From IMG/VR virus record IMGVR_UViG_3300028299_000324, positions 1-50,185 of that record: DNA of 50,185 nt, one strand, 5' to 3'. Below, piece by piece: positions 4,242 through 47,293 of the stretch. A program made the position numbers and the translations under genes. How positions within the stretch are numbered: the first letter of the stretch is position 1; each line of letters begins with the position of its first letter. The notes beneath the pieces are model-generated. The model saw only the letters and a list, made by a program, of their open reading frames with translations, was not told the origin of the DNA and searched no databases. This DNA is from a virus.

Positions 4242-4244
4242 ATG

Positions 4245-9261: not shown

Positions 9262-12200
9262 ATGCCAGAAGAAACCTTAAAATATCGTGTAGAGATTGAC
9301 TCTTCGGACGTAGGTGCACAGTTAGATCAAATTCGAGAACAAATCGATACTGCAGTAGGTGCTAACGCTGCCGCGTCTGTCGCACCAGCTGGAATGTCAC
9401 AATTTTTCAATAGTGGATTTACTCCAGCTTTAAATGGAAGCTTTGCCAGTCCCGATCTAACTAATAATATGAATACAGGTTTAGCACGTGTTATGGATAT
9501 GATTGACAGGTCTACGGATCGCGCTCAATTAGGATATTCTCATTTTGTAGACGATGCCAGACGAATCGGTTTAATGTCTTCTTCAAATTTTCCCAGCTAT
9601 TCGCCGCCACTTAGTGCGGCTCAATCACAACTAAATCAAGGTTTTTTTGGATCTGCAGTAGGAATGTTTGGTATGGGGTATGAACCAAGGGGTTCTTTGT
9701 CTGTTGGCGAATTCAGAACAATGTCTTCTGAATCATTCGCCGAGAGTACTGGGTCGTTTGCTGCTAGTTTTCCAGGACTCTCAGCAGGGATAGCTGCGGC
9801 GGCACTAACGCCAGTTGGATGACCTGCCGTAGCTGCTGGCCTTGTTTTTGATATGTCAGTGGGCACTCTAACAGGACCAGCAAGAGAACGTGATAGATTC
9901 GCAACAAGTCTTCGAAATTTTACTGACCCTATTTTGGGAGGGATGTCTCGTGAAAGTTCTAGAGACATTACTGATGTTCTATACTCAAGAGCACATTCTT
10001 ATGAAGGATATCTTGAAGATATAAATATGAAAGATATTCAAGAAATTATGGCTACTTTTGGTAAAGCTGGCGGGTATTCGGGCGTTCATAATCCACAAGA
10101 ATTTCAACAACGCACTACGGAAGTATTAGATAATATTCGCATGGTTGCACATTCATTAAACGTTTTTCAAGAAGAGGCAGCGCAAATTATGGGCGAATTG
10201 CAGCAACGGGGAATACATGGTATGCAGGGCATGGGTGGTTTTGCAGCAGGACAACAAGCAGCAGGTGCTTTAGTTGGAATGACTGGTTTAGATTTTATTC
10301 AAGGTGGATTATATGGCGCGCAAATGGTTCAAGGCTCTCGTATTGGAGCAACAACCGGTTTTAATTTAATGCAGGAATCTCTCTTATCTGTAGGCAACAT
10401 ACAAGAAAATCCTTTTGGCGCGTTCTTAATTCAAGATATGGGCGGACCTCAAGCAGCTGCAGCGGCTGCCATGGAAACGGTATTACGACATAGACAAGGA
10501 GGACTTGGTTTTATACAAGGAGCTAATGTATTAGGCGGCGGAAATTATTTTGATGGAAATGTTACAAATCAACTTATTGGAGCTTCTGAGTTTCTTAGTG
10601 CAGATCCATTAAATTATTTTAAACTTCTGGGTGCACAGGGACAATTAACTGGTTCTTTGGGCAATATGTATGGTATTCAAGGAATGCAAATTCAAATGGT
10701 TAAAACAGCCACTGAACAAATGAAAGCAATGGGTTATGTAGATGAGGGGGGAAAAATTGGAAGTCTGGAATTAACAGGTTTTATGATGCAGGTGTATGGT
10801 ATGTCAGCCAATGATGCTGAAATGCTTGTGTATGGAGCTATGAATGGAGGTTCTTTTTCTGATAGAGATAAAGTTGATAAAAGCGTAGTTGATCAAATTA
10901 TGCAGGAAAATTCATATGGTATATTTAGTCGTGGATCTGCTCGTGTAAAAGAATGAGGCGCTAGTATAAAAGAAGCTTTTACAGAAGATGCGGGAAAAGG
11001 CTGAACAATTATGAAAGATTTTGTAACTGATAAAGTAAATAGCGGATTAAATAACTTACGAGGACGACAAGAAGTTACTTTTGGTGGTATCTCAGATCCA
11101 GCAATTATTGCGTTATTAAAGTCTCCTGGTATGGATCTTATTGCAAATAAAGATAACAACGGTATAAACGAAGTTGCTAATATAGGTAAAAAAATCATAG
11201 AAGAAAGACCTTGATTAAGGGACATGGTTGGATTAGAAGAAGAACTTGCAGAAATGTATGCCGGCGTATCTGATAGTGTAGGGGATAGACGTTCTAGAGG
11301 AGTGTTTCATGAAAGAGATCGTCTTGGTTTAACAAATGAAGAAGTAAAATTACAACTTCGTGCACAAGGTATTGCTTTAACGGCGATTGAAAAAAAAGAG
11401 GCTGACGAGATATATGCAGACGAGATTATATCCTTAGATAGAAACTGACCAGGTATTGGTACTGAAACTAATACTAAAAAACTATTAGATGCCGCTGCCA
11501 ATCAAGTTTTTCAAGAACCCTTTGAAAAACTAACTAAAGTACGACAAGCAACTCTATGAAGAGAGTTTGAAAGACAACAGCCAAAAAAAGTTATGAACAT
11601 TTCTTATGAGACAGCTGCAGTTATCGGCCAACCCGTATTAAAGGACTATGAAGGCACTTCCGATTGAAACGAAAAAAGAAAAGAGCTTGTTGATGCTTAT
11701 ATGCATCAATCAGATTTTGAAGGAAAAAGTCTTCTCAGTCGCTTCAGCGAATTGCATGATATAGGTTGATTTTTAAAAAAACTAGAAAAATCTCGAGACG
11801 GTCTAGAAACGTCTTTAGAATTGTATATAAAACACGGTGAAGGAAAAGAACGCGACATGGCCATATGGCTAGATAATAATTTAAAGGCAACATATACGCC
11901 TTCTTTTGATCAAGAAAAAGCTAATAAAGCTAATATACAGCAAGCTAAAGCTTTTATTGGAGAGATTTCTGAATTACGACAATTAGGCGGCGGGGCAAAG
12001 CTTTCAGAAGAACGTGTAAAAGAAGTACAAGAACGTATAGATAAAGAAGTCTTGAAAGGCGGCACTGAAACTTCTCAACGTTTAACTGCTGGTAATTTAA
12101 AGGAAGCTGCCATAGCTTTTGATGAAGCACATAATTACGTGACTGGTGGCGTATTTTCCAAGGGTGCTTCTAAAGAAGAATATGATAGAATCTACGAAGA

Positions 12201-12393
12201 ATATTCCGGTCTTTTAAATACAGTTCAAATGACAACTCTTTATAATACGGACGGGATAGACAAAGAATTTCAAAAAAGAATAGGAGAAGACCTAAATAAA
12301 ACCTCTCGAGATTTTATAAGATCTATAGCTACAAGGATGGAAACACTTGCTTCAACTATAACTGATGGTAAAATAAATGTACACAACAGTTAA
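9262..12393 (+). CDS. Tail tape measure protein
   Basis: A 1,043-residue protein if TGA is Trp. Eight in-frame TGAs (9820, 10954, 11002, 11212, 11446, 11557, 11665, 11767) would otherwise break it into fragments, yet all fragments lie in one frame and end at TAA 12391. The middle is rich in Gly, Ala, Met and Gln (about residues 300-400), and the C-terminal third is charged and helical. Position after the frameshifting chaperone and before the hub is the usual one for the tape measure, which sets tail length. By the rough 1.5 Angstrom per residue rule the tail would be of moderate length. Identification is positional and compositional. Confidence 0.72.
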
Positions 12394-12398
12394 CACAA

Positions 12399-15300
12399 AT
12401 GAAATCTGAATTTAAAAAACAAACTTTTACTACAGACGCTAATAATTCTTTTGAATTATATTTAGAGGGAATAAAAATACCTTTTTCTGCAATTACAATT
12501 TCAGAATCAGAAGATTCATATCCTTTAGCAAGTATTACATTTCCAGCTACAGCCGGCGCCTTACGTATTTTAGGAGGCACAATTGTACAAATTTTTGGTC
12601 CTGGTTTAGTCGAAGATGAAAAAACAAAAACTAGAAATCAAGGAAAAATAATATTATTTGAAGGTGCTGTTAAAAGTTATAATTATCAAAAAACGGTTGT
12701 TGGTCGGATGGTTGTCTTGAGTTGTGAAAGTTTGTTAAGTAGCTTTGAAAATGCAAAGTTATTGCCTGTCGATTCCTTGCTTACAACGGAGATCTCATCT
12801 TCTATGCATCTAAATAAAATTCATATACATAATCAAGCTTCTTTTGCCCCAGATAATATAACTAACTTAGATGAACTGGTAGCACAAAAAAATCAGGCAA
12901 AAGATTGAACAGGAGAAATGAAAGATATTTCTTTAAAGAATACTTTAGGCGGATTAGCACAAGAAATTCTAAAACTTTTAGAAAAACCTAATGCTGCGGA
13001 AGGAGACTATTTTAATATTTTTCATAAGGTAGAGGCTTATTTTGAAGTATATGACTTGCTTTATGGTGCTACAGCTGGATCTTTTAATATTAGGGCTTCT
13101 TTATTAGCAATGCCAAATCCTAAACAGAAAGAAATGCAAAGTGCTTTTAGGACCAAGTTAACACAAGCGTCTTTAGCAAATTTAAAAGCAACTTACGGAC
13201 AAGTTAATTTAGGAAATACAAATCAAATCACATTGAAATTACTATTTGATGAAATACTCCAAATTTTACACTATACACTTATTAGGCCTGCCGCTTTTCC
13301 GTATGTGCATAGATTTTATACCAATGCTGATAATAAAGGTCCTATACGTGCCATTATTTCTCCTGAATTAGACATGAGCCCTCCTGTTTTATGCAATGTA
13401 TTTTTTCCCGATCAGGTAGAAGAGTTTCAATTTGCAAAAGATTTAAAAAATGAAGTAACGAGGGTAATAACACAAGCGCCATTGGGACAAATAGATAATA
13501 CAATGTTTAAAATGTTTTACCCAGTATATGTGGCGCCTAGTTTGTCTCTAAAACCATCGGGTGGTAGTTATCAATCAGGCCTAACTGTTGAGGAGACATA
13601 TCGCGGCGTGGTTCCCAAGTATGTGGAACTTGATCGCTCTTTCTACGCAGCTTTATTAGCTGATATGAAAGGTGCAAAAGATACAGGACATTTTTTTGAG
13701 TCAAAAAAAGATACTAAAGTTGAAGACGTTGTTCGAGCAATAGCTGCTTTTGAATCAGGAGGAAAATCCGATAGCTTATCAGTAAAAAATAATAATCCTG
13801 GTGCGCATATTTGGCTAGAGGAGTTCGCAGGTAGACCTTATTATGCTAAGAAAGAAGGACCGGGTTTCATAGGCAGTGACAAAAAACGATATTGGATTGC
13901 AAAATATGATACATATGAGCAAGGACGCAAAGTATCTGACATTATAATAAGACGTAAATGAGCAAAAACAGGAGACGATTTAAGTCTGTTTGTGCATTCA
14001 TATGCAGATGTGGAATATGGGTCTGATGAGCATATGAAGTATATGAATGCAATTCTTAAAGCTGCAAAACAAGAACCGGTCACAGTAAATAATTTAAATG
14101 ATGCAGGAACTATCGAAGGTTTAGGAATAAATCCAGAAGAATGGGATATAGCAGAAGGACAACTAGGAAAATTGTTTACCGAATTGACCATGTTAGAATA
14201 CGCAAAAGCAAAGATGCAAAGTAAACTCTTTTCGATGACTTGTGAATGAAGTCCCTATAGAATGATAGGAACACCGGCACTGTTCATTGATAAAAATGGT
14301 CCGTCAATTACAGGGACTATAGAGTCTATAATAACTCAACTGGATTCACAAGGACAAGCAAAAAGTTCTATTACTTTTAGAAATGCTAAGTTAATTTATG
14401 ATAATGAATTTGACTCTGCTTTTTTTAAACTTCCGGACGAAGCTGGTCAAGAAGATATTTCTGTTCATGTGTTAAAAGATTTTGTCACTGAAAATTTTAT
14501 AGGCGCCGCTTCTCTTTTATATGACTCGGCATTATATAGTGCATATACTATAGGACTTGATGCCTACTCTTATATGTTTTATGGAAAAGGTCATAAACGA
14601 AAAGAACTTTTAAACTTTTCAAAAAAATTAAAAACTGATGAAGATACCTCTTCCTGAATAAATGTTGCTGCTTTAAATGATAATTGGCCTTTACGTTATG
14701 ATCAATCTATTTTTTCTTTAATTCGCTCTTCTGAGCCTGGTAAAGAAGATACCTTACTTATTAGTAAAAAATTTAGTGAATATTTTGAATCTTTACAAAA
14801 AGCTGGTATTTCTTATGATAACATTTTGTATAATGTTCAATTATATAATGCTATTCATACTCTTCGTAATCAATATACAAGTTTAATGTTTTCTGGCAAT
14901 AGCCTTGAAACAGAAAAGCAAATACCAAAGAATTTACAAAGCTACATCAATATGATTACATGGAGACCAATTACGTCAAAAGAACAATATTTGGCAGATC
15001 TTGGTGTATCAAATTTGGGAGATCTTGTAGACTATAAAGACACAAAAGCTTTATTTGGTTCTGCGGATGCCGTAGAAAACGCTTTAATAAAGCTTGATTC
15101 AAGTGGAAGCCTTATATTAAAAAAAGATGCAACCACTATAAATACTTTAGAAGAAGAAAAAGCTCGTTTACAAGCATTATATAACTATGTTAAAATGCAA
15201 ACACCAACGTGATTTCAATGATTAAAAGATATTATTGTGATTGACACACGAAAAGGCTTTCTTCGACGAGCCTGAAATCGTGTGGATGGGGATGAGACAA

Positions 15301-15833
15301 CTACTGCATCTAACAAATCTTTCCATGCACAAACACAACAATTTAATTCTTTAACGAGTGCCTATATAAAAGCTGTCCATACGCTTGTTAATAAAGGCCC
15401 TGAACCAGCAAAAAAACTTGTTTCAACTTTACTTACAAGTATAAACAATTATATGAAAATAAATGGTCTCGCTTTAAATAATCCTGCGTTTGACCCTGTA
15501 AATTTTTTAGATGCTTTAAAAAAAGAATCACCCTTTCATTCATTTTTTACAAATAGACAATTTTTTAACCTATTTGATGTAATAACAACAGAAGGTTATA
15601 AATTTACTATGGACGATTTAAAAAAAATAGAGGGTCTTGAAAGTGTAAAGAAAAAAATAGCTGAAGATGCCGCAAAAAAGGGAGCAGCAAAAACTCCGGA
15701 CCAGAAATTAGACGATGCAAAAACAATGTCAGCAATGTTTAAGCCGTATGCTCTGATTAGACGAGCACATGTTATAGAAGGATTAAAAGCTTTTATTATT
15801 CAATCAAACAAAGATACCATGGTGACCACATAA
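12399..15833 (+). CDS. Baseplate hub protein with muralytic domain
   Basis: An 1,144-residue protein with seven in-frame TGAs (12906, 13959, 14247, 14655, 15210, 15219, 15273). The N-terminus (LYLEGIKIPFSAITISE, then PLASITFPAT and IVQIFGP) looks like the beta-rich start of baseplate hub/spike proteins. Around residues 440-530 lies a lysozyme/transglycosylase-like segment: AIAAFESGG with candidate catalytic E452, then NNNPGAH, a pattern common in phage tail lysozymes that cut peptidoglycan during infection. The rest is helical and unassigned. It follows the tape measure by 6 bases, and its stop overlaps the next ATG (TAATG). Confidence 0.65.
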
Positions 15834-17047
15834 TGACATTACGTACTCCACAGCAATTACCGGCCTTACCAAGAAATAATGTATATAATCCTTTTAAATT
15901 AGACGTGTGGCCTTCACAAGATACACTTTTTAATCTACCTAGAACAAACGTAGATAATTTTCCAAGTGAAAGTACTATTGATCCTGTTAATGCTTTTACA
16001 TATAAAAGACCTTTATCTAAAACGGCACCACTAGATTTAAAAGAACATATAAATGCTACCACAGATGCCGGAGCACAGCTATATGTCCAAACAATAGATG
16101 GTGCGGTTGTGGCACAAACAAACAAATTCTTTTTAAATGCTTTCTCTTTTGGTATGAAAGAGCGGACACAATTAATGGAAACTTTTAGTGCTCCGTCGAT
16201 TGCTTTTTTCGGAGAGTCGGTTCGGATTTATAACTTTGCTGGAACCGCTGTTGACTATGCAGGATCAAATGGACCAAGATTTTATCAAAGCAGCCTAATA
16301 AAGATGTATAATGATATGCTACGAGGAACTCTACTTGTTGAACGAAATCAAATAGCCATTATAACTGTATTAAATCACACTATCTATGGATATCCGATCG
16401 CTTTTCAATCTAATTACAGCGCCCAAAACGATAAGATGGCTACTTTTTCTATGAGCTGAGTTGTAACAGAACATGACTTAACACTTCCCGGAGTTATAGG
16501 AGACGACCAGTTAAATTATATGTACACACATAATGTTGCCATACCAAAGGGACTAATAAGAGATTTGCCGCCCTTAATGGGAGCTATTGCAGATTTGGGC
16601 CGTTTCTTTAATTTTAGTGGTTGGCTAGATTTGACTGACGATACTGCTAAATTTGCTTTTTTAGCAAACAGAGAATGGTCATCAGTAACTCCATATGAAA
16701 TCCAATCTGGTTTTGGCTCTGAACCAAAAGTTTTTATTGATGCTCTTGATAGATGTTTAGCCAGACTAAGTGTGACTTTGAATAACATCGCTGATAGCGC
16801 AGAGTATTCACCTATTCTATCTAGTTTATTTTCAGATCCTAATAATGCTGAACAAACTTTAAAAGATTCAATAACAAAAACTTTTAAAGAATGAAGCGAG
16901 TTGGTACCTTTAATGTGGACAACCTCTGGATTTTCTAGTAGTGAATTTATTAATTTCAAAAATGATCTTGCTCCTTTAATAACGTTGTATAATAAACTAT
17001 TAACCATACAAAGAGCTAAATTAGCACAAGCTAGTGTAGATAATTAA
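15833..17047 (+). CDS. Baseplate/tail structural protein, family not identified
   Basis: A 404-residue protein with in-frame TGAs at 16457 and 16892. It starts with a Pro/Asn-rich region. A central beta-rich part (NQIAIITVLNHTIYGYPIAF and NDKMATFSMS) resembles tail-tube-adaptor or baseplate proteins that bind the hub, but I cannot name the family. Its place between the hub and the sigma factor within a continuous operon, with TAATG coupling to the hub gene, supports a structural role. A gp53/LysM-type baseplate protein is a possible alternative. Confidence 0.5.
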
Positions 17048-17048
17048 C

Positions 17049-17765
17049 ATGGCTACTATAAAAGAAAAAGAAATGACTTTATATGATTCCTATAAGCAAG
17101 GAAATACAAAAGCCAAAAAAGAACTTTTAACTTCGTTAAATCCTTTAGTGTATCAACAAGTTAATAAATACAAAGGTTCCGGCTTGCCAAATATGGCTTT
17201 AAGACTTGAAGCACGTAGACTAACAAGCAATGCTATAGATACTTATGATCCATCGCTTTCTCAATTAAACACCCATGTAACAAATTCTTTAAAAAAACTA
17301 AGTCGCTTTGTTATGAATTATCAAAATATTGGGCATATTCCAGAACCACGGATTTTAATGATTGGAAAATATAATACAATATTTGATAATCTTCATGCTG
17401 ATTATGGTCGAGAACCGACTATAACAGAATTAGCAGATGCAATGCAAGTTAATCCAGCTGAAATAGAGAGATTACAACTTGAACTTCGCAAAGATCTTTC
17501 CATGACTGTTCAAGAAGATGATGAAGAGGGAGGTTTTTATTTTTATCAACCTAATAATGATCTGGATCAAAAAACAAAACAAGTTATTGAATTTGTCTAT
17601 TTTGATGCTAACCCAATTGATAAAAAAATTATGGAATATATGTTTGGAATGTCTGGTGTACAAAAATTAAATTCAAAAGACATTGGAACAAGATTAAATT
17701 TAAGTCCTAATCAATTAAAAAAACGTCAATTACATATAGCTGACGAAATAAAACAATTAATTTAA
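17049..17765 (+). CDS. Sigma-70 family RNA polymerase sigma factor
   Basis: A 238-residue sigma-like protein. Residues about 75-150 look like sigma regions 2-3 (YDPSLSQLNTHVTNSLKKL, IGHIPEPR, then GREPTITELADAMQVNPAEI), and the C-terminus has a region 4 helix-turn-helix (LNSKDIGTRLNLSPNQLKKR). The N-terminal part of region 2 is weak. It would direct RNA polymerase to phage promoters, most simply late ones. Unusually it is embedded in the baseplate operon, coupled to the next gene by TAATG. It has no Trp at all, so it is readable under either genetic code. Confidence 0.85.
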   Translation: MATIKEKEMTLYDSYKQGNTKAKKELLTSLNPLVYQQVNKYKGSGLPNMALRLEARRLTSNAIDTYDPSLSQLNTHVTNSLKKLSRFVMNYQNIGHIPEPRILMIGKYNTIFDNLHADYGREPTITELADAMQVNPAEIERLQLELRKDLSMTVQEDDEEGGFYFYQPNNDLDQKTKQVIEFVYFDANPIDKKIMEYMFGMSGVQKLNSKDIGTRLNLSPNQLKKRQLHIADEIKQLI

Positions 17766-19945
17766 TGCCTGATACTAAAGAAATAATGGACGCCTTTGCC
17801 GCGAAAGTTCAAGCAACTTTAGGGCCTTTTGGTATTGCTTTGGATAATCCTTGTGATCTTAGTTTATTAAAAGATAAAATTATTGGAATGACCGAGGAAT
17901 TTTTAAAAGAAGCCGACGAATCTATAAGAGCCTTATCAGCAGAAGCAGTAAGTGCACAATTTTGGCCTATAGTTGCACAGGTATTAATAGAGGTTTTTGA
18001 TATGGCTGAAGGGGCGGCAGCAGCGTACGTTGATAAAATTATTGGAGACCTAATGAGTAAGGGTCTTGGAGTAGTATATTCTGTTGTTGCCTTACTTTTA
18101 ACTTCTTTAGATAGTGCCCGTATCATTCTTGATTATTTAACAGTAGTAGCTTTAAAAAAAGCATTAGAAAAACGTATTGAAATGAATCGTGTTATTGAAA
18201 TTGACATCCGTATCTTGATAGGTTTTGTCAAAAATCTATCAAGAGTTATTGATGTCAAAAAAGCAAAAGCAGGACAAATTGGTTCCCTAATTTTGGCTAA
18301 AAGAAGACTCGAAACTGTTCTTGTGTTACTTGCCATAGAAATTTCTAAATTAAAAAATAAAGAAGGTTATGCAGTTACTAAATCCTCAATTGAAAGTGCT
18401 ATTTCAGGAATTAAAGAAACCGTTTCAGATTTAACACAAGGTTCTTACAAAGTTTCAACTAAATTATTAAATAAAGCTGCTCAAAACGCCAGTCAAAAAC
18501 TATTACAGAATAACACGGGGTTTACTGCTGAATTAGTAGAAATTGCAAATGTAGATGAATTAATAAACATAATAAATAAAAATATCAAAACGATTATTTT
18601 TGAGGATGTCTCTAATAAAAACATTGAAGCACATGATTATGATTCAGCTATAAAAGCACAACTAGGTGTATTTAATTTATACTTATCTGAAGTATTTCCA
18701 TTAATTCCAGACGCCTTACAACTTGTATTAGCGCAAGAATTGGTTGGAAGTTCAGTTAACAGACTAGTTAAACGTATGCCTATTCTTGGAGGATTAACTT
18801 CAGAACTTACTAAAAAAGCAACAGAATGATTAGCGACTCCTGCACAACAATTACAAAAAGTTTTGCCTATTGTTCCTTCAATTTTAAATGAACCACCTAT
18901 ATTAAAGAATGAACCTAAACTAACGTGAAAACGCGCAATGACTGCCGGAAAATTAGCGAAATCTGGAGTATTGCTAACACCAGATTATTTTGCTTTTTTA
19001 CAAACAATGAGTTATCTTACGAATATATATTTAAGACCTGCGCAGACATTAGTAAAAGATGTTCATGAAGACATAAAAGATGCTATTAGTAATATAGAAT
19101 CCAGTACCTATAATCTTGGTGATGTACAGTTACGAAAAGTAAAGTGGATAGGAAGTCTTTTATCTGCTAAAAGTTTATTAGAGAGTACAACTCCTACAAT
19201 CACCTTTGAAAAAGGAAAGTCTATTGATGTTGCCGCCGCACTTAGTTTACAAAAAATGTCAGACGACCTGTTAGCACAAATAAAGAAAAAAATTCAAGAA
19301 TTTAGTTATCTTAAAGGCACATCGCAAGTAACTGTAGAGCCGGGAGACAAAGTTCATCAATTAGCACAAGAATATTTATCGCCATTAATCGCATCACAAG
19401 CTGTTTTATTTAGTCCACAAGTATTACATCGTATGATACCAGGATTAATAGGAATAAAAACTTTATTAGCACAACAACATTATCAAGATTTGGAATTGTT
19501 AAATCTTTGCAATACTTATATTTTAACTGTAGGATCCTCTTCGACATTTAAACTTGCAAAAGCGGAATTTGATGCACTCTTTAATAGTGTAGGTGCAGTT
19601 GATAATTTAATAGACAAAGTGCGAAATGGAGATTTATCGGAACTTGTAGCTGTATTAGATACATCTAAATTATTAAGTGATATTGCAAATATGGCCTTGT
19701 GTTATGAAAAAGATTTTACATTTGATGGGTTACCTTCGTTTGCCAGCGGTATTTGGGATACCTTATCTTTAACTTGGGGTTCAAGAAAAAAATTCTTAGC
19801 ATGGAACAAGGCAAAGGATAAAATGATTGCAGATTTAAAAGATAAACTTATGGACTTAAAAGATTTAATTCACGTAGCGGACGAGATTGTGCATCAATTT
19901 ACTGGTACCATAGCTTTAATAAAAGATTTTAATGGATCAAAATAA
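17765..19945 (+). CDS. Large helical tail/baseplate protein, unknown
   Basis: A 726-residue protein with in-frame TGAs at 18827 and 18926. It is mostly long amphipathic helices, with a hydrophobic stretch around residues 95-120 (VVYSVVALLLTSLD) and many Lys/Leu/Ile heptad-like segments. I do not recognise a family. It lies between the sigma factor and the gp25-like wedge, and both neighbours overlap it by one base (TAATG), so it is very probably part of the baseplate or tail assembly. A membrane-active or ejected virion protein is an alternative. Confidence 0.45.
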
Positions 19946-20469: not shown

Positions 20470-20479
20470 GTAAGTTACT

Positions 20480-25492: not shown

Positions 25493-25504
25493 TGAGGAAA
25501 CAAA

Positions 25505-27580: not shown

Positions 27581-27581
27581 T

Positions 27582-28621: not shown

Positions 28622-28632
28622 AAATTTAATAT

Positions 28633-38158: not shown

Positions 38159-38410
38159 ATGCCATATATAGAAGATTTAAATTCCAAGATAGCAGAAGCT
38201 ACTACAGAGAATCAGGAACGACTAATTTTAGTTGAAAAGATTTCTAAAACTATAGTTGAAGAAGAGAAAAGCTTACGAGCTGTTCAAGAAGAATTTCTAG
38301 CAGTTCAACAACAAATAGAAGGATTAATTATTGCCCGCAATTTGTATATAGTTGAAAGCAAAAAATTATTAGAAGAAGTAAAAAAACCATCGAAAATAAA
38401 TGACAATTAA
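38159..38410 (+). CDS. Small coiled-coil protein, unknown
   Basis: An 83-residue, highly charged protein that is one long predicted coiled coil (TENQERLILVEKISKTIV to the C-terminus) with no membrane segment and no Trp. It opens a cassette under its own promoter. It overlaps the next gene by 11 bases. Placed just before a membrane-anchored coiled-coil protein and upstream of an amidase, it could be part of lysis control or a fibre chaperone, but nothing in it proves this. Confidence 0.6.
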   Translation: MPYIEDLNSKIAEATTENQERLILVEKISKTIVEEEKSLRAVQEEFLAVQQQIEGLIIARNLYIVESKKLLEEVKKPSKINDN

Positions 38411-38624
38411 TATAGGCCCTTCTTATAGACAGCCAGATGAAACTTACGAAAATTATTGTCCTCGTCGAAGAAAAGATAATAAGCTTTTAAAACATTATTT
38501 AAAAGGAAAGAATGTTTGGAATATGGCTCTTTATAGTACTTTTGCAGATAAAACAAAGCAAGAAAAAAAGAGAGCCAGACAAATTGAAAAGAAAATCAGA
38601 AAAAGTAAACATGGGAAAACTTAA
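38400..38624 (+). CDS. Small basic protein, unknown
   Basis: A 74-residue basic protein (PRRRKDNKLLKHYLKGK and a C-terminal Lys/Arg tail KKIRKSKHGK). Its single Trp is TGG. It overlaps both neighbours (11 bases before, 14 after), which suggests coupled translation. No family recognised; it may bind nucleic acid or membranes through its charge. Confidence 0.5.
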   Translation: MTINIGPSYRQPDETYENYCPRRRKDNKLLKHYLKGKNVWNMALYSTFADKTKQEKKRARQIEKKIRKSKHGKT

Positions 38625-39348
38625 CACATTTATAACAACCCATAAAATGGGATTTGGTGGCAGTATTATTGCTATTCTAGTAGTAGTAATCATAGGATTA
38701 AGTTTTTGGAGCAACTATCAAATTGGTCAACTAAGAAAAGATGTTGCTTTTTTTCAGAATGAAGCTGCTAAACGTGATGAGATTCACCAGATAGATTCAA
38801 CAACCATTAGCCGTTTAAGTCTCAAAGTCAGAGATATATCTTCTAATAATAATGACCTGCAGAACAGAATTAAATTACTGAATGGAACAATTAGAAGTCA
38901 AGCCAGTTTTATAGCAACACTCGCAGATAGCATTGCAAATATTAATACTCATGGAGATACCTTAATTACGGGAGGTCTTGTCCGTAGATTTGATGTAACT
39001 AAAAATGCCTTTACTTTAAAAGGTTGGTTTGAACTTCAAGAACCTTATAGTATTACCTTCGAACAACTTGCAGCTCAAATTGCACTTGAACTTAATATGG
39101 TTCAACTTCCTTCCGGTCAATGGGAAGCCTTCGTAGACACAAAGAACCCAAGTTTGCATGTTACAGACCTGATCACAAAGGTAAATCCGTATAGACCGCC
39201 GTGGTGGAAAAAATTTAATTTATCTGCTGGTATATATTTACAGGGAAATGAATTTGGTTTAGTAGGTGGTGTAGGATATGATAAGTTCATAGGTCTCATT
39301 GGGTATGATCCTAGAGGATATTTACTAGGCGTACAATATGTATTTTAA
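38611..39348 (+). CDS. Membrane-anchored coiled-coil protein, possible spanin-like
   Basis: A 245-residue protein starting at ATG 38611; a further upstream in-frame ATG at 38512 is rejected because it lies deep in the preceding gene. One membrane segment (about residues 16-35, GSIIAILVVVIIGLSFW) is followed by a coiled coil (40-100) and a beta-rich C-terminal domain with PYRPPWWKKFNLSAGIYL and a final GVQYVF. An N-terminal anchor, a long periplasmic coiled coil and an outer-membrane-like ending (alternating residues, terminal Phe) would fit an envelope-spanning lysis protein in a Gram-negative host. All Trp codons are TGG. The lysis role is inferred. Confidence 0.5.
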   Translation: MGKLNTFITTHKMGFGGSIIAILVVVIIGLSFWSNYQIGQLRKDVAFFQNEAAKRDEIHQIDSTTISRLSLKVRDISSNNNDLQNRIKLLNGTIRSQASFIATLADSIANINTHGDTLITGGLVRRFDVTKNAFTLKGWFELQEPYSITFEQLAAQIALELNMVQLPSGQWEAFVDTKNPSLHVTDLITKVNPYRPPWWKKFNLSAGIYLQGNEFGLVGGVGYDKFIGLIGYDPRGYLLGVQYVF

Positions 39349-39351
39349 ATA

Positions 39352-39380
39352 TTGCTTTTTTAATGATTAATCCTTATATT
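39352..39380 (+). promoter_or_regulatory. Promoter before the 39386 gene
   Basis: -35 TTGCTT (39352-39357), 17-nt spacer, -10 TATATT (39375-39380). The hexamers match the promoter at 38105. The GTG start lies 6 bases after the -10, again suggesting a leaderless or nearly leaderless mRNA. Confidence 0.6.
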
Positions 39381-39385
39381 TAGTT

Positions 39386-39562
39386 GTGGCGGATATTTCA
39401 ATACATATAGATCCAGTTTACGAATCCAAAAACTTTTCTGTTCAAGTGGATGACCATAAACAACAAAAAACTAAGATACTGAATGACACATATAGTTCTT
39501 ATGACAGGTGCATAAAAGCAGCCATGATTTATATAAATTTAATAAGGAAAAAAGATGAGTAA
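39386..39562 (+). CDS. Small hypothetical protein, GTG start
   Basis: A 58-residue reading frame: VADISIHIDPVYESKNFSV and onward to RKKDE, ending TAA at 39560. It follows its own promoter and overlaps the next ATG (39555) by 8 bases, an arrangement that supports a real gene although the start is a GTG. No Trp. No recognisable family. Confidence 0.5.
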   Translation: MADISIHIDPVYESKNFSVQVDDHKQQKTKILNDTYSSYDRCIKAAMIYINLIRKKDE

Positions 39563-39932
39563 AGCACAGAAATTAATAAATAAATATGCTTCAGCTATTC
39601 GTATTGATAAAATACGGTCTGGGTTGGCTAATAGAGAAGTACAACTAGCTTTTTTAAAAACTAAAAATAGAGGAATTGCTGCAACTAAATTACGAACGAA
39701 AACACGACAGCAATTAGAAACTATCCGAGAATTAGCAATAAAAAAAGGACCTGATAAACTAAATTTTTCTCTTCCTTTGCCTCTAACACAAAATACAGTT
39801 GCTAATGAAGCCCAAAAAGCACTTATAGACTGGCGAATATTTGCAGATAGAAGAGAATTACGCAAAGTTACTCCAAAACAAGCTTATCATTATTTAGGCG
39901 GTAATCATCATTTTCTTGATAAAAAAATATAG
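39555..39932 (+). CDS. Small basic hypothetical protein
   Basis: A 125-residue basic, helical protein (many Lys/Arg, for example KLRTKTRQQLETIRELAIKK) with a Pro-rich middle (LPLPLTQNT) and C-terminal YHYLGGNHHF. An AAGGA site lies before the ATG. Its single Trp is TGG. It ends 6 bases before the tRNA-like gene. Function unknown; it may bind RNA or DNA. The TGA-free state and the promoter upstream place it in the early-type cassette. Confidence 0.55.
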   Translation: MSKAQKLINKYASAIRIDKIRSGLANREVQLAFLKTKNRGIAATKLRTKTRQQLETIRELAIKKGPDKLNFSLPLPLTQNTVANEAQKALIDWRIFADRRELRKVTPKQAYHYLGGNHHFLDKKI

Positions 39933-39938: not shown

Positions 39939-40033
39939 AGGTCCGAGGCCAGTTGGGTGGTAAGTGCTCTTCAAAAGCATCCCCGTTGGGTCCAAACCAA
40001 CGTGCGAGGGTTCAATTCCTTCCGGACCTGCCA
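39939..40033 (+). tRNA. tRNA-like gene, anticodon UCA (reads UGA), likely Trp
   Basis: Seven-bp acceptor stem AGGTCCG/CGGACCT, discriminator G (40030) and encoded CCA; T arm GAGGG-TTCAATT-CCTTC (40006-40022); anticodon arm GTGCT-CTTCAAA-AGCAT (39964-39980) with UCA at 39971-39973. A1-U72, G2-C71, G3-C70 and G73 are the bacterial tRNA-Trp identity elements. The D arm is weak (GCCA/TGGT, 6-nt loop) and a 25-nt variable region forms a 6-bp hairpin whose own loop GTCCAAA contains CCA, a Trp anticodon, at 39992-39994. So it is either a class-II-shaped tRNA(UCA) or a tRNA-Trp with an inserted hairpin. Either way it is unusual. Confidence 0.7.
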
Positions 40034-40055: not shown

Positions 40056-40664
40056 ATGTGAAAATATATCTCAAATATAATAAATACAGTTTTTGGTAGT
40101 AAAATATCCCCTGTAGTTGCGCCTGTAGAGCCAGTACAGACTTTTCAAATTATAAATATAACTGATCAGCTCCCATGACATCCTACGCGTAAATGAGCTA
40201 AAAGGGGTTTAGTACAAATAAAAAAAATTGTTGTACATCAGGCGTTGTCAACCTATACAAAAACTACAGTTCAAGGAATAAACAAATATCATATTACCCC
40301 TTCCTCTGATAATCATATTTCAGTAAACGGTGCACCGCATATTTGTTATCACTACTGCGTTATAGCTGATGGTACTGTTTATCAAACCAACTACCTCAGT
40401 AACGTTACATGACATGTTGCCGGACATAATACTAATTCTATAGGTATTATGTTATTAGGAGATTTTAATGGTCCAACATGAGTTGGTATTGATAAAAATC
40501 CGACACGAAATCAGCTCATGAGCTTAGAAAAGTTATTAAATCATTTAATAGCAGAGGAACAATTAAATATAACTATTCAGGACATATATGGTCATAAGGA
40601 TTTTGGAAAAGAAAATTGTCCAGGAATAGCAATAACACGATTTCTTGATGAGTATAAAAATTAA
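40056..40664 (+). CDS. N-acetylmuramoyl-L-alanine amidase (endolysin)
   Basis: A 202-residue Amidase_2/PGRP-type endolysin readable only if TGA is Trp. In-frame TGAs are codons 2, 41, 47, 119 and 142 (40059, 40176, 40194, 40410, 40479). Zinc ligands fit H61 (KKIVVHQ), H180 (YGHKD) and C188 (NCPG), with the T7-lysozyme spacing of 7 between the last two. Codon 119 is the W of the conserved W-H-x-x-G-H-N-T-N-S-I-G-I block, a good check that TGA encodes Trp. It cuts the Ala-muramic acid bond at lysis. It starts 23 bases after the tRNA. Because codon 2 is TGA, unsuppressed termination would stop synthesis at once. Confidence 0.88.
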
Positions 40665-40701: not shown

Positions 40702-41787
40702 ATGAGAAAAATAACAAATACAGACCTAGATGTCGTGGATTTTGTACTCGAACCAGGTCTAATAAAATTATCAAAACTTATAGAAAATTTATCAGATGAG
40801 GCAAAGATTGCATATGTTCCGTCTTTTGAAGAGCAGCAAGCAGCAAACGAGAAAAATTTTGCTTTGGTATTATGAGACCCTGCCGAAGGGAAATTACATA
40901 AATATGCTCTTTATACACCTGAATTAACAGAACTTAATCTTGCTTTTTTAGCAGATTTAAAAAATGAATTACCGGAAGAAGCAGTAAAAATAGCTGCAAC
41001 TAATTTAACAGTTGCTGCTAAAAATTATAAGCTTCCAATTCCTGAAGCCTTACAAGAATATACTTCTGATAAATATATATACAACGTACTCGATGTGAGA
41101 GATATAAATAAAGTAGCATTTATAACTAAAACAGCTTTTAAAGAAACTGAACCAACCGCATTTGCTTGGGCAAAAGAAAAAAAATATCCTTTACATAATA
41201 AAATTAACATAAAAAAAGCAGCTGCTTATTTTGAAAAAGAACATTATAAGATGCCTATTGCAAAGAAGTCCGAGTTTTGTCAAAATGTAATAGATGCGGC
41301 AAATACTAATAATGTTCCTTTAGATAATACTGCAATACATAAATATGCCTCTTTTGACACCATTATAAATCCTGATTTTGTAGATCATATAAAAGTTCGA
41401 ATAAGTTATTTAAAGGATCACGAATCCGATAAGGGCTTCAAGGATACCTACACTGAGCTTATTAAAAGAGCCAGCACTCAGGGACAACAAGAAGTTGAAC
41501 AGATTATGCGCGATGTAGAAACTGCTGATATAACTTCTGGACTATTTAATAGTTATGGAAAAGGAATCGCAGATCCTTATGAAACTACTTTATCGGTTGT
41601 AAAAGTTGCAGAAAGAACTGTTGATGGAATGACTGTAAGCCTTGAACAACTACGAAATATCCCTGATGGTGAATTAACAGGTTTAGTTGGAAATGCAGGT
41701 ATATCTGAATTAAAAGCTGAAAATGGCTTAGATGTGTTTGCTGCGTTGCCAAGACCTGTACGTAAGGATATACTCGATCTACTATAA
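40702..41787 (+). CDS. Hypothetical protein, probable virion protein
   Basis: A 361-residue helical protein with a single in-frame TGA at 40873 (codon 58, LVLWDPAEG). It has no recognised domain. Charged helices, TAATG coupling to the next gene, and location in a block with portal suggest a virion or head-assembly protein. A short inverted repeat (AGTGT/ACACT) lies 15 bases before the ATG. Confidence 0.45.
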
Positions 41788-42095
41788 TGCTTGAAATGTG
41801 GCTTCTGTTAGGACTACTAGCAGTTTTCGTAATATTATATGGCATTAGGACTTTTAAACAAGAGATATACAATGCTATGAATTGCACTGACAAAGAAACA
41901 CACTTATTTGCCAAAGACCCTTTTAATGGTTATTCTAAAAGTCATTTAAAATGAAATACTTCTGAAATTCCAATAGAAAGTGCAAATTCTTTTACTAAAG
42001 CAAAAGCAACACGTTCTAGTATGACTTCACAAAAAGTAACTAGCAATATAAATGGACAGGCAGAATTAATAAAATTAAGAGAAATCAAAAAATAA
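41787..42095 (+). CDS. Small membrane protein, unknown
   Basis: A 102-residue protein with an N-terminal membrane helix (LLGLLAVFVILYGI) and a short soluble tail. One in-frame TGA at 41952 (codon 56). It is coupled to the upstream gene by TAATG and ends 1 base before the actin-like gene. A holin is conceivable given the nearby amidase, but one membrane segment and a long polar tail do not prove it. Confidence 0.5.
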
Positions 42096-42096
42096 T

Positions 42097-44181
42097 ATGA
42101 AAGGATTAGATATAGGAACAGGAAATTTTGTTTTAGCTGACGACAGTGGCATATACTTACAACGTAATGCATTTCTAACTTTAAAAAAAGGAACAGCTTC
42201 TTTTAGGCAATTAAAAATTCTAGACGTTCCTTATGTAGAAATTGAAGGTCGCGTACATATCGTAGGACAAAAAGCCTATGAATATGCACAAGTATTTAAT
42301 ACAACAGATTTAAGGCGCCCAATGGCAGGAGGATTATTAAACCCTTCAGAGCAAGATGCATTACCAGTGTTAAAAGTTATTATTGAAGAACTTATAAAAC
42401 AAGCAAAAGCTGCTGAACCTGGAGAAAGAATTACTTATAGTATTCCTGGGCATCCTTTAGATCAAGATCGAGAAGTTGACTATCATGAAGATGTTCTTGG
42501 ACAAATTATAACAAGTTTAGGTTTTAAAACTAAGTCTTTAAATGAAGGCGTTGCACTGGGAACTGCTGGTTTAATCAATAATAAGCTAACAGGTATATCG
42601 ATCTCTATGGGTGCAGGAATGTGCTTAAAAGGAGATACAAAAATACCTTTGTTAGATGGTACCATAAAAACTATAAAAGAATTATCTGACTTGGGCAAAC
42701 AACATATTTTTTGGGTGTACTCTTGTAAAGAAGATGGGCAAATTGTTCCAGGAAAGGCTTCTAATGCTCATAAAGTAAAAACTTCAAAAGAACTTTTAAG
42801 AATAACATTCGATAACAATAAATTTTTAGAGTGTACTCCAGACCATAAAATTATGTTAAGAAATGGTTCTTATGAAGAAGCACAAAATTTAAAAAACGGT
42901 ATGTCTATTATGCCTTTATATACTAAAAAATACAATGGTAAATATAGACGAATATGGAATAATAAATATAATAGATGGAACAATGAACATAGGCTAGTTT
43001 GGAAACAGCACAATAATGCTGATATCACAAAGGTTGATTTAGTGCATCATCTAGATTATAATCCAGCTAACAATATTCCAGAAAATTTAAAAGTGATGAC
43101 TAAAAAAGCCCATTTACAGCTGCACAGAACATTAGCAAAGTATAATACTGCCAAAGCAAAAGGAAAAACATACGACGAAATATATGGGAAAAATAAGGCA
43201 TATAAAATAAAAAGTAAACAGCGTACTAGCCATAAAAATTGGTGGAGTGGTTTATCTACAGAAGAACAAAATCAATATAAACTAAAATGGCCCGTTATAA
43301 AGAAAGTTGGGCAAACATTGGAAGAAACTTTTGGGAAAAAGATTGCTGACAAGATCAAAAAAAATTCTTCTGAAACTATGAAAAAAACGTTTTTAGCGGG
43401 TAAATTAGGAACACGTCCCCCAACAAAAGAAACACTTAAAAAATGTCAAGAAAATGGCTTCGGTACTTATAAGCGCACGCCCGAACATTTAAATAAAATT
43501 TCTAACACACTCTTTAAAAAAGAGCAGATTCCTTGGAATAAAGGATTAAAAGGTGATCTTTATAAAACTCACTTTAAACAAGGTTTTTCAAATCAAACAG
43601 GAATTAATTATAATCATAAAATAATAAAAATTGAAAAAATAGAAACTAACGAAGATGTTTATGATATAAGTGTAGAAAAATATCATAACTTTGCAATAGA
43701 TGCCGGAATTTTTGTTCATAATTGTAATATTGCTATTTTATATGCTGGAATGTCTGCTCTACAATTTAGTGTTTCTAAAGGCGGAGATTGGATTGATACA
43801 CAGGTTAGCACTGAAACAAATATTTCTAAAGCACAGGCACAATTTATAAAAGAATCCGGAGACTACACAATTGATCCGGCTTCCAAAGATACACGCAGCA
43901 GAGCACAACAAGCTATTAAGACATATTATGAATCTCTTATCAGATACTTATTAGCTAATATAGAAAAACAATTTACTTCTAATAATATGCCCGCATTTCC
44001 GCAAGCGGTTCCTATTGTAGTAGGCGGAGGGACAGCTATGGTAAAAGGGTTTTTAGAAGTCTTTAAAGATCAATTTACACAAAAAGAATTTCCACTTAAT
44101 ATAAGTGATATAGTACTCGTTGATGAGCCTTTAACGGCAGTAGCTCGGGGGTGTTACTTAGACGCCCAGTTGGGAGATTAG
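42097..44181 (+). CDS. Actin-like ATPase (ParM/Alp family) carrying an intein
   Basis: 694 residues of which 367 are an intein; the spliced protein would be 327 residues, a normal length for a ParM-like phage actin. Phosphate-1 is MKGLDIGTGN (D5), phosphate-2 is SMGAGM|CNIAI (interrupted), and the adenosine motif is VVGGGTAMVKG. Such filaments can segregate or centre phage DNA. The intein starts at Cys176 (42622) and ends VHN at 43722, with Cys following, so splicing should be canonical. Unlike its neighbours, the whole ORF has no in-frame TGA; the extein has one Trp (TGG) and the intein eight, all TGG. It has a TAG stop. Confidence 0.88.
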   Translation: MKGLDIGTGNFVLADDSGIYLQRNAFLTLKKGTASFRQLKILDVPYVEIEGRVHIVGQKAYEYAQVFNTTDLRRPMAGGLLNPSEQDALPVLKVIIEELIKQAKAAEPGERITYSIPGHPLDQDREVDYHEDVLGQIITSLGFKTKSLNEGVALGTAGLINNKLTGISISMGAGMCLKGDTKIPLLDGTIKTIKELSDLGKQHIFWVYSCKEDGQIVPGKASNAHKVKTSKELLRITFDNNKFLECTPDHKIMLRNGSYEEAQNLKNGMSIMPLYTKKYNGKYRRIWNNKYNRWNNEHRLVWKQHNNADITKVDLVHHLDYNPANNIPENLKVMTKKAHLQLHRTLAKYNTAKAKGKTYDEIYGKNKAYKIKSKQRTSHKNWWSGLSTEEQNQYKLKWPVIKKVGQTLEETFGKKIADKIKKNSSETMKKTFLAGKLGTRPPTKETLKKCQENGFGTYKRTPEHLNKISNTLFKKEQIPWNKGLKGDLYKTHFKQGFSNQTGINYNHKIIKIEKIETNEDVYDISVEKYHNFAIDAGIFVHNCNIAILYAGMSALQFSVSKGGDWIDTQVSTETNISKAQAQFIKESGDYTIDPASKDTRSRAQQAIKTYYESLIRYLLANIEKQFTSNNMPAFPQAVPIVVGGGTAMVKGFLEVFKDQFTQKEFPLNISDIVLVDEPLTAVARGCYLDAQLGD
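42622..43722 (+). other. Canonical intein with HNH endonuclease in the actin-like gene
   Basis: A 367-residue intein. Block A CLKGDTKIPLLDG, block B CTPDHKIML, terminal IFVHN followed by Cys. In the middle a HNH domain (VHHLDYNPANNIPENL...HLQLHR) and NUMOD-like repeats (ETFGKKIADKIKK, RTPEHLNKIS, PWNKGLKG) form a homing endonuclease. It splits the ATP-binding phosphate-2 loop (GAGM|CN). All eight Trp codons are TGG, as expected for an element shaped in standard-code genomes. Confidence 0.9.
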
Positions 44182-44182
44182 G

Positions 44183-44563
44183 ATGAGCAAAGCACAAAAC
44201 GTTTTTTATAAAGTAGCTGCAAGCAAAAAAAACAAGTTATCTGATTTAAAAGCAGCAGTTGCAGGAGCGGCGTCTGGTATAGCAGGAACTATGATAATAC
44301 GCCCACTTGATATGATTGTAGATATAAAAGCTCTAGGCGGAGATCTAGCCTGACCAAAGCCAAAAGCAACCTATTGAGGCACAACTAAAAATATTTATAA
44401 AACACATGGCTTAAAAGGTTTTTATGCTGGGTCAGTCGGTAAAGTTTTAAAAATTGCTCCTCAAATGGGTATTACTTTTTTAGTATATAAAAAAGTGTCA
44501 GATTACTTAGATAAAAAAACCTTTAAACCCCGAGTACCGCTTGTTATTAAGAAAAACAAATAA
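44183..44563 (+). CDS. Single-repeat mitochondrial-carrier-like (Solcar) protein
   Basis: A 126-residue protein resembling one repeat of the mitochondrial carrier (SLC25) family. The first helix AAVAGAASGIAGTMIIRPLDMIVDIKA carries the P-x-D signature; after a loop, YWGTTKNIYKTHGLKGFYAGSVGKVLKIAPQMGITFLVYKKV matches the matrix helix, the GFYAG motif and the second membrane helix in order. Real carriers have three repeats and about 300 residues; this one has one. The sixth position of the P-x-D-x-x-[KR] motif is Val. In-frame TGAs at 44351 and 44375. It starts just after the actin-like gene and is TAATG-coupled to the next. It could act as an oligomer, or be a virion/ejection protein. Function unproven. 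Confidence 0.7.
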
Positions 44564-45045
44564 TGGAATTTACAGAAATATTAAGAAGTAAAGAAATTTA
44601 CGAACCAGAAACACTAGAGATGTTATTTCCTGAAATGACCTCTCTGGATCGGCAAAAGATTCAAGTTCTGTGACTGTTGCAAAACACACGTTCAGCTTAT
44701 GAAGATCTTGAAATTTTTGAAAATGTCGTTTTAATTTTAAATGATATAGAGCCTGATCCTACCAAAATGGAAGGATCTACTCCTGAATTTATTTGGAAAG
44801 CACTTGACATAATTGCAAAGATACATAAAGATGTGGAACTAGCAGATGAAGTGAAAGCATATATAAAGTATACTTATGATGATTATGGATATAGTTTTTA
44901 TCCACCTACTTCAGGATTAGAACAAACCCAATGGTATGACAAGATCAAACGGACAGCAGAAACCGGGCCATTTCCTTTAAAAGAAGATGTTTTTGGAATA
45001 CAAGTTATACGCTATTTACGTATAATGAAATACATCAATAAATAA
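44563..45045 (+). CDS. Hypothetical protein upstream of portal
   Basis: A 160-residue acidic, helical protein with one in-frame TGA at 44671 (codon 37). No domain recognised. Position directly before the portal and coupling to the Solcar gene suggest a head-completion or portal-assembly factor. A GGAG site for the portal gene lies after its stop. Confidence 0.5.
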
Positions 45046-45057: not shown

Positions 45058-46935
45058 ATGCCTGTTAGACAAGTCACAGAGGCAGATGTAGAACAGTTAA
45101 ACACAAGAAAGTATCCTAATCCATACTTTGATTTAGCTAATAACTTCATCCCAAAAAATATTAAAACGCTTTTTAAGTTTTGTAAAGCCTATTTTTATAC
45201 CAACGGTTTCCTTCGTAATGTTGTTACCAAATTAACCGAATATCCTATTACAGATATTTTATACGCCCGTATAGATCCCGCCACTAAAGAAATATATGAT
45301 ATAGCTTTACATGAAAAATTAAACATACGAAGATTTCTTATTGAAATAGGACTGGATTATTTTACATTTGGCAATGCTTTTATATCTTTTAATTTACAAT
45401 TTAAAAGATTTTTGAAATGTACTGTTTGTAATGATGTTCGACCAATAGATGAAGCAGACTATAAATTTAGAAATTTTAAATTTGAATTAACACTATGTCC
45501 AAATTGTCAAACTCGCAATGCTATAGCTGAAATTGAAGATGAAGAAATTAAATCTATTGACACCTTCAATTTAGTAAAATGAGATCCTATCAATTTAGAT
45601 ATTGATTATAATCAATTAACCGGTAAATCTACCTATTATTATAATATTCCAAGTAGTATTAGAACTAAAATTATTTCCGGAGATAAAATAACTTTAAAAG
45701 AAACACCAAAAGTATTTATTGATGCTATTGAAGCAAAAAAGAAAATTGAACTCAATTCTGATAATATCTATCATTTTAAACGTCCTACTCTTGCAGAAGA
45801 TGATATGGGTTGGGGCAAACCTATAATTTTACCTGCACTAAAAGAATTATATTATTTACAAACATTACGTAGAGGTAACGAAGCAATTGCTAATGAGCAT
45901 ATCGTTCCTAAAAAAGCTATTTTCCCGGCTAATACTACAAGCATGGATCCGTTTAGTATGATGAACCTTGGCAAGTGAAGTGGAGAAATACAAACTCAAA
46001 TTAAAAAATGAAAAGTGGATCCAAACTACATTGGTGTGTTTCCTATACCTATTGGTTATCAGGAGTTAGGTGGTAATGCTCGAACTTTGCTATTAACACC
46101 AGAATTAAAGTTTATTGAAGAATCAGTTATTAACAGTTTAGGCGTGCCTTTAGAATTTATTAAAGGAGGCACCACTTGAACAGGATCAAGCATTTCTCTT
46201 CGTATTGTGGAAAATCATTTTTTAGTTTATAGAGATCTATTATCAGACTTTTTAAATTTCTTTGTTATTAGAAAATTAACAAGAGTGCTTGATTACCCAG
46301 CCGTCAAAGTTCATTTTAAAGATCTAAGAATGACAGATGATACAGAATCAAAACAACTAGCCTTAAATTTAAATGCAGCAAATAAAATTTCTGATGATAC
46401 ATTGCTTGATCAATTAGGCTATAATCCACAGCATGAAGCTGAAGCCAAAAAACAAAGTTTTGCTGATGCACTTGCAGCTGAAATTGAAACGCAAGAAACT
46501 CAAGCTGAGGGACAAGGCCGAGCACAAGTTATTTTAGCACGTTATCAATCTAGAGCAGCAAAAGCTCAAGAAGACGAGATTTTTAAAATAAGAGCGGAAT
46601 TATTTCAAGATGAATTAAATATGGAATTGGGTGCTATTCCAGATGATCCTGTAAAATTAATTGAACAGTACGCCTATCAAATGCTAAGTTTGCCAGAAGC
46701 ACAAGCTAGAAAAGAATTGCAACAAATGGCTATAAAATTACCTGTAACATATAGTTTAGTAACTGAAAGAATTCAGATGATGATGACAACAGCACCGGCA
46801 AATGTAGATGAGGAAATACAAACTGTAAAACAAAATACAGCTCCAAATCAGCAAACACCCGGAACACGAGAAAAAGATAAAGTAGAAATAAAAGGCGAAC
46901 GCCACAAAGCCCCTACTAAGGGACAACCAAACTAG
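45058..46935 (+). CDS. Portal protein
   Basis: A 625-residue portal with four in-frame TGAs (45580, 45976, 46009, 46177) and TAG stop. Portal features: an N-terminal helical part, a beta wing, NIYHFKRPTLAEDDMGWGKPIILPAL, a stem region with NEHIVPKKAIFP, PLEFIKGGTTW before the tunnel-loop region, and a long acidic/Gln-rich helical tail (crown). An inserted zinc ribbon (CTVCNDVR...LCPNCQTR, about residues 121-160) is unusual. It forms the dodecameric DNA gate at the capsid vertex. SD GGAG lies 10 bases before ATG. No terminase or major capsid gene is in the window. Confidence 0.8.
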
Positions 46936-46946
46936 GAGAATAAACT

Positions 46947-47114
46947 ATGGAAAAATATGGAACATATAAAGTCTATAAAAATATAACCACTGGTGAAATT
47001 CTTCGAATTGCATTTAATCCAGAAACGGAAGAGATGTCAGATGATTTTCAAAAAATAGCTGAAGATTTATCACAATGACAAGAATTAACTGAAGACCCAG
47101 AAGATAAAAAATAA
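46947..47114 (+). CDS. Small hypothetical protein
   Basis: A 55-residue protein (MEKYGTYKVYKNITTGEI ...) with one in-frame TGA at 47076 (codon 44). A GGAG site precedes the ATG, and its stop overlaps the next ATG (TAATG). With TGA as stop it would be 43 residues. No family. Confidence 0.55.
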
Positions 47115-47293
47115 TGGATTTTTATGATGGTAAAAAAAAGATAGTTGAGACATTTAACTTAACAGAACAAAGTGAATTAATGCGATATGAAGCAATTTTG
47201 AATGATCCCACTTGTGACATATATCGAGATAATTTTACATATGATCGTGCAGGACGTCCAATTATAACCATATGATATGTTAAAGACGAATAA
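47114..47293 (+). CDS. Small hypothetical protein, end of the plus-strand block
   Basis: A 59-residue protein with in-frame TGA at 47273 (codon 54) and TAA stop at 47291, just before a bidirectional terminator. It is polar and Tyr/Asp rich (FYDGKKKIVETFNL ... TYDRAGRPIITIWYVKDE). If TGA were a stop it would lose only 6 residues. Function unknown. Confidence 0.5.

Follow-up and report, generated by a model that had tools for sequence, protein, structure and literature searches.

The window, by which we mean the whole stretch of 50,185 bases analysed here (IMGVR_UViG_3300028299_000324), is a virus record classed as linear and is probably a fragment. Its virion and lysis genes, among them a baseplate wedge homologue, an Rz-like spanin, an amidase and the portal, form a block on the plus strand that is flanked by minus-strand replication genes and a glycosyltransferase. 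The protein-coding features are as follows:

39..8248, minus strand: replication block (exonuclease, primase, helicase), coding sequence without TGA
9262..38098, plus strand: virion gene block, 95 in-frame TGA read as Trp
17049-17765, plus strand: sigma factor, inside the virion gene block, without Trp
20480-23542, plus strand: baseplate wedge homologue, inside the virion gene block
30974-38098, plus strand: giant ORF, inside the virion gene block
38159..39932, plus strand: TGA-free cassette with the Rz-like spanin gene and two short genes of unassigned function, 7 TGG
38512-39348, plus strand: Rz-like spanin gene, 0 TGA and 6 TGG
40056..40664, plus strand: amidase/endolysin, 5 TGA and 0 TGG, codon 2 being TGA
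40702..45045, plus strand: genes between endolysin and portal, 5 TGA spread over four genes
42097-44181, plus strand: actin-like gene, interrupted by an HNH intein
45058..46935, plus strand: portal protein, 4 TGA, opposite invariant or frequent Trp in relatives
47322..49730, minus strand: glycosyltransferase with an intein-like insertion, 0 TGA and 9 TGG

Neither the HNH intein of the actin-like gene nor the insertion in the glycosyltransferase contains TGA. The helicase consists of two ORFs around an endonuclease ORF at 6560-7531 (region 5669-8248, minus strand), an arrangement consistent with a group I-type intron, and no Rfam intron match for this insertion was found in the window. The portal protein is 33% identical to that of Vibrio phage D69 and 31% identical to that of Salmonella phage Arash. 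Judged by this protein, the phage is a member of a large family of tailed phages, mostly metagenomic, that is distantly related to these two. An exact-peptide search returned a single portal relative, and an alignment query returned 80 loci. A Shine-Dalgarno-like core precedes only 8 of the 36 genes of the window, and this scarcity suggests a Bacteroidota-type host.

The initial annotation proposed that TGA is recoded to tryptophan in the virion and lysis genes only, and counted about 109 in-frame TGAs in 20 plus-strand reading frames. We recovered the 109 codons, which by the present gene calls lie in 19 genes between positions 9262 and 46935. The recoded frames were said to end at TAA or TAG, and all 36 listed frames do so, none ending at TGA. 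The count per gene also agrees with what had been claimed for the TGA-free regions: the minus-strand genes have 0 TGA and 35 TGG, and the cassette at 38159-39932 has 0 TGA and 7 TGG, against 109 TGA and 43 TGG in the remaining plus-strand genes (Fisher p = 2e-16 for the minus strand and 2e-4 for the cassette). One TGA in the minus-strand ORF 7535-8248 was left uncounted, as it falls at a place where a helicase exon apparently passes into an intron. Two elements of the original picture have to be narrowed. The actin-like gene, offered as a TGA-free contrast, is uninformative because 8 of the 9 Trp in its translation sit inside the intein; its intein-free homologue in the relative L001 reads straight through. 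Recoding in the lysis genes holds for the amidase but not for the Rz-like spanin gene. Hence, recoding in the window is confined to the late (virion and lysis) genes, the spanin cassette excepted, where lateness is deduced from gene content. The sharp operon-level division, presented as the main value of the observation, is real here but was already known from crAss-like phages (PMC7886860). It is looser in G001, a 210-kb relative whose plus strand has 104 TGA and 210 TGG and whose minus strand has 14 and 224. The base that follows the TGAs of the window (+4) shows no clear bias (p = 0.08).

What does TGA encode? We masked the TGA sites as X and aligned the window proteins with those of genomes without recoding. 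Among the 220 residues found opposite TGA sites, 121 are Trp, all of them encoded by TGG, followed by Tyr (20), Phe (17) and Leu (9). The TGG sites of the window, put to the same test, face Trp in 51% of cases, the same share as the TGA sites. The summed BLOSUM62 score at TGA sites is +161.6 for Trp and +40.7 for Tyr, the next best residue, and is negative for Ser (-66) and Cys (-72). In the closest recoded relative, G001, whose portal is 80% identical, the TGA sites of the window are occupied by 33 TGA and 36 TGG, and in L001 (58% identical) every portal Trp is TGG. The alignment to homologs thus bears out the proposed meaning: at the level of sequence, the late genes use UGA for Trp.

The only tRNA that ARAGORN finds in the window lies at 39939-40033, within the late operon, between the spanin cassette and the endolysin, whose start is 22 nt 3' of it. 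The initial annotation was silent on this gene, which ARAGORN labels tRNA-SeC with anticodon TCA. Its parts are:

39939..40033, plus strand: candidate two-headed UGA-decoding tRNA, CCA end encoded (covariance model R1, 75.6 bits, E 4.8e-17)
39939..39945, plus strand: 5' strand of the acceptor stem, AGGTCCG, giving A1-U72, G2-C71 and G3-C70
39964..39980, plus strand: arm 1, GTGCT-CTTCAAA-AGCAT, with anticodon UCA at 39971-39973, predicted to read UGA
39984..40002, plus strand: arm 2, a 6-bp stem with the 7-nt loop GTCCAAA, CCA at 39992-39994
40023..40033, plus strand: 3' strand of the acceptor stem, CGGACCT, with discriminator G73 at 40030, then CCA

Arm 1, with the loop CUUCAAA, has the form of a normal anticodon arm, and its UCA anticodon sits in a complete cloverleaf. 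Arm 2 takes the place of the variable arm, and its loop, GUCCAAA, holds U33, C34, C35, A36, A37 and A38 of the anticodon loop of tRNA-Trp. The acceptor identity elements of bacterial tRNA-Trp are G73, A1-U72, G2-C71 and G3-C70 (PMC9976931), and all four are present. Deleting either arm leaves a near-canonical tRNA, with a body that matches tRNA-Trp or UCA tRNAs with a single anticodon arm, which we call one-headed. The SeC label and the long variable arm raise the question of an ordinary selenocysteine or serine tRNA that would insert Sec or Ser at UGA, and G73 is recognised by SerRS (PMC7609411). This reading is extremely improbable. Ser or Sec at UGA is ruled out by the alignment test, where TGA aligns with Trp. 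The acceptor branch, both in the window tRNA and in alignment A3, has 7 + 5 bp and not the 13 bp of tRNA-Sec (PMC7609411), no Rfam family matches the window at gathering score, and the variable arms of Bacteroidales selC lack the CCA motif. A class II tRNA for Ser, Leu or Tyr is ruled out as well: TGA is not Ser, and TCCA occurs in the arm of none of the 83 distinct Ser/Leu/Tyr long-arm tRNAs from phage contigs of the same sets.

The two-headed architecture is not peculiar to this phage. Portal relatives, which were found without any tRNA criterion, have the same tRNA gene in the same place. A DNA pattern scan with its controls and a genome scan yielded 50 distinct two-headed UCA tRNAs on phage contigs, which have G73 in 50/50 cases, a position outside the scan pattern, and U72 in 48/50. 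The 5-bp stem of arm 2 varies in sequence among them and stays paired: 193 of 210 pairs are formed, against 109 +/- 6 when the 3' strands are shuffled (maximum 136 in 5000). In alignment A3, all five pairs of arm 2 have changed on both sides. On this evidence, the two-headed tRNA is a conserved RNA class. Current tools label its genes SeC or overlook them (L012/L013, L094). Covariance model R1 finds a copy in L012 (E 1.8e-7), a recoded locus, that ARAGORN misses; this tRNA, at 5903-5998, has an unusual T-loop, GGCGGTA. Within the portal clade, the model matches recoded loci only and no unrecoded relative. In the isolate genome of Bacteroides neonati MS4 (L354/L400), a two-headed tRNA adjoins terminase-like genes, and a transposase-like gene follows immediately 3' of the terminase ORF; this locus is apparently a prophage. 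When the window tRNA was compared by BLAST with named phages, the annotated matches that could be placed were ordinary tRNA-Trp only. Among 26 matches in bacterial genome contigs, 8 were genuine selC with a chance TCCAAA, and 6 of these 8 came from mutually related alphaproteobacteria.

The second anticodon goes with the amino acid. A complete scan for long-arm UCA tRNAs, in which CCA was not required, gave 70 distinct tRNAs. TCCA is absent from 17 of them, nearly all genuine selC, the exceptions being L515 and L528. Of the 49 long-arm UCA tRNAs that combine G73 with an acceptor stem of 7 bp, 48 have U-CCA-A in the arm and none has a Gln motif. The one clear exception among these G73 tRNAs is L515, whose acceptor is of the Trp type and whose long arm lacks CCA. 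The equivalent scan for amber (CUA) tRNAs gave 30 long-arm tRNAs with G73, where the picture is reversed: 28 carry the Gln motif (U-CUG or U-UUG, then A or C), and a single one, L499, carries the Trp motif. About two motif carriers would be expected with shuffled arms (Fisher p ~1e-19 per UCA/CUA contrast). A stem of 5-6 bp closes the Gln loop of L440, L451, L480 and L486, and many other amber Gln arms have a short stem or an ambiguous register. Reading the CUA loci in code 15 raises their coding density (median +0.20), as expected if UAG encodes Gln. In sequence terms, the anticodon of arm 2 is therefore cognate to the amino acid of the acceptor, in two codes.

Some members depart from these two patterns. 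L499 combines a CUA anticodon with a Trp-type acceptor and a CCA arm; its coding-density gain is 0.22 with TAG read through, and it is possibly a UAG = Trp phage. In three CUA tRNA-like genes (L439, L458, L462), N73 is U and the arm is very long, with a second hairpin lacking a recognised cognate anticodon. On a Bacteroidales MAG contig (L401/L421, 319-604), tRNA-like genes that have second arms lie in tandem. One, with a UCG anticodon, has Trp-type ends and a TTCCAAC loop. The other, with UCA, has the Gly identity elements G1-C72, C2-G71, G3-C70 and U73, and its arm 2 is GCGTA-CTTCCAG-TACGC, with the Gly anticodon UCC. These could be sense-codon or Gly versions of the two-headed tRNA. The longest genes of the contig (an HsdM-like gene and a secreted repeat protein) have 0 TGA, and no further Gly version (UGA = Gly, arm 2 UCC) was found in viral contigs.

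The presence of two-headed tRNAs is associated with recoding. Under code 4, the median coding-density gain of two-headed loci is +0.128, with 34 of 41 above 0.05, against a median of -0.001 and 2 of 53 above 0.05 among portal relatives (p = 4e-14). The baseplate gene has 5-7 TGA in four genomes with the tRNA and none in six genomes without it. These data bear on the idea that UGA is simply leaky and no special tRNA is needed. An ordinary tRNA-Trp can weakly misread UGA. Such misreading would however leave almost no full-length product of a 2374-codon gene with 31 TGAs, and relatives without the tRNA have no TGAs; we see hardly any chance that it accounts for the data. We also looked for phage-encoded partners. 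A phage TrpRS was found in none of 30 two-headed records and in 4 of 22 one-headed ones (p = 0.03). A strict mutual exclusion between phage TrpRS and two-headed tRNA is suggestive only, as one-headed Trp-like tRNAs without a detected TrpRS exist. A search of 25 records, of which 22 were two-headed, found no phage release factor. In G001, the two-headed tRNA stands alone in the plus-strand virion operon, some 30 kb from the ordinary tRNA cluster, which includes a tRNA-Trp(CCA). A phage tmRNA at 15541-15943 of L429 (G001, ~95.5 kb) adjoins a cluster of about 25 tRNAs.

We propose, with a probability of about 0.7, that UGA is decoded as Trp by a two-headed tRNA of the late operon in which arm 1 decodes and arm 2 serves for charging by the host synthetase. 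Arm 1, in the normal position and with its UCA anticodon, would pair with UGA on the ribosome. The CCA of arm 2 would be the anticodon read by the host tryptophanyl-tRNA synthetase, so that charging is uncoupled from decoding; this could involve a swap of the arm that stacks under the D arm. We infer the charging role from two observations taken together: the second anticodon follows the amino acid and not the codon, and a CCA arm should not be needed for decoding, since wobble should let U34 read UGG as well as UGA. Both GlnRS and TrpRS use the anticodon for identity (PMC9976931). Some evidence speaks against a need for arm 2. According to a structural study (PMC12135181), Escherichia coli TrpRS has no need to tell C34 from U34, so that an ordinary UCA tRNA-Trp lacking arm 2 might already be a substrate. 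Moreover, one-headed UCA tRNAs with Trp-like ends occur in recoded phages without a detected TrpRS, albeit mostly on fragments, and L515 runs against the rule of a cognate arm.

Could arm 2 be something else? It could be a tolerated leftover of a tandem duplication of the tRNA-Trp anticodon arm, after which arm 1 mutated to UCA. The near-canonical tRNA left by removing either arm and the resemblance of the bodies to tRNA-Trp and one-headed UCA tRNAs fit such an origin. We nevertheless think it unlikely, because the loop of a relic should drift: the stems have fully diverged and still pair, and the loop anticodon is kept in 48 of 49 tRNAs and is a different one in the amber class. Alternatively, arm 2 could be a decoy or shield against host anticodon nucleases or tRNA-cleaving toxins. 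Host defences of these kinds are known to attack phage tRNAs. Yet arm 2 is found on suppressor tRNAs only, always matched to the amino acid of the acceptor, and ordinary long-arm tRNAs lack it, which makes this role very improbable. Finally, one arm could be removed during maturation, or the stacking arm could switch, giving UGA- and UGG-reading tRNAs from one gene. Either arm alone completes a normal cloverleaf, and a 2026 survey of jumbo phages reports intron-like calls in the tRNAs of recoded phages (PMC13037316). But wobble by U34 should already cover UGG, and several of these phages have a separate tRNA-Trp(CCA) nearby. To our knowledge, no bacterial or phage enzyme excises such a 20-nt hairpin. 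We regard this third option as improbable, somewhat more so than a leftover.

Under the charging model, the distribution of TGA may have a simple cause. We infer from gene position that the two-headed tRNA is probably transcribed with the late operon. If so, TGA would be lethal in early genes and harmless in late ones, and the division between gene blocks would arise without any further regulator. A regulatory use of the tRNA is also possible.

How does this relate to known systems? Phages of code 4 (UGA = Trp) and code 15 (UAG = Gln), mainly crAss-like, have been described (PMC7886860, PMC11210395), and the recoding of late genes by TGA = Trp or TAG = Gln together with suppressor tRNAs is established (PMC7886860, PMC11210395, PMC10746230). 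Several features are common to these phages and our case: the stop codon used as sense mainly in late genes, a suppressor tRNA, and code switches among close relatives. The window phage differs from the crAss-like ones in its D69/Arash-related family and in its two-armed UCA tRNA. A Sup-TCA tRNA was found in only 11 of 73 (15%) code-4 phages (PMC11210395), and very divergent suppressor tRNAs have been speculated for recoded phages (PMC7886860). The combination of a one-headed phage UCA tRNA with a phage TrpRS is described in PMC10746230, citing Borges. One-headed tRNAs share the UCA anticodon and the reading of UGA as Trp, but have a normal variable loop where the present ones have a second anticodon arm. 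Bacterial selC also has the UCA anticodon, a long variable arm and G73, and even A1-U72 in its Bacteroidales form, but its acceptor branch is longer, its variable arm holds no anticodon and it inserts Sec. The novelty of allo-tRNAs is an 8/4 or 9/3 acceptor branch, unlike that of the two-headed tRNA, which keeps a 7/5 branch and is novel in its second anticodon arm. Allo-tRNAs and other non-canonical tRNAs resemble it in being natural and non-canonical, some being opal or amber suppressors (PMC7609411). We found no earlier account of a tRNA that bears a second anticodon arm in the literature, preprints (bioRxiv) and Borges 2022 lying outside the search. Hence, the new part relative to earlier work is the tRNA, the late-gene division having been published.

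These results suggest that phages may have split decoding from amino acid charging within one tRNA. We consider it fairly probable that the two-headed tRNAs form a phage tRNA class that breaks the rule of one tRNA, one anticodon, and that serves the reassignments of UGA to Trp, of UAG to Gln and possibly, in L499, of UAG to Trp. If arm 2 is a charging element, aminoacylation identity and codon reading would reside in separate anticodon loops in a natural molecule. This would be a natural counterpart of a central aim of genetic-code engineering, and would allow one to test directly how much displacement of the anticodon a synthetase accepts. An unmodified host synthetase would then have been captured by the phage for a foreign codon. 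Two-headed tRNAs may also explain part of the recoded phages that are said to lack a suppressor tRNA. The portal clade, with close relatives that have and do not have the tRNA, makes the order of events in the change of code testable.
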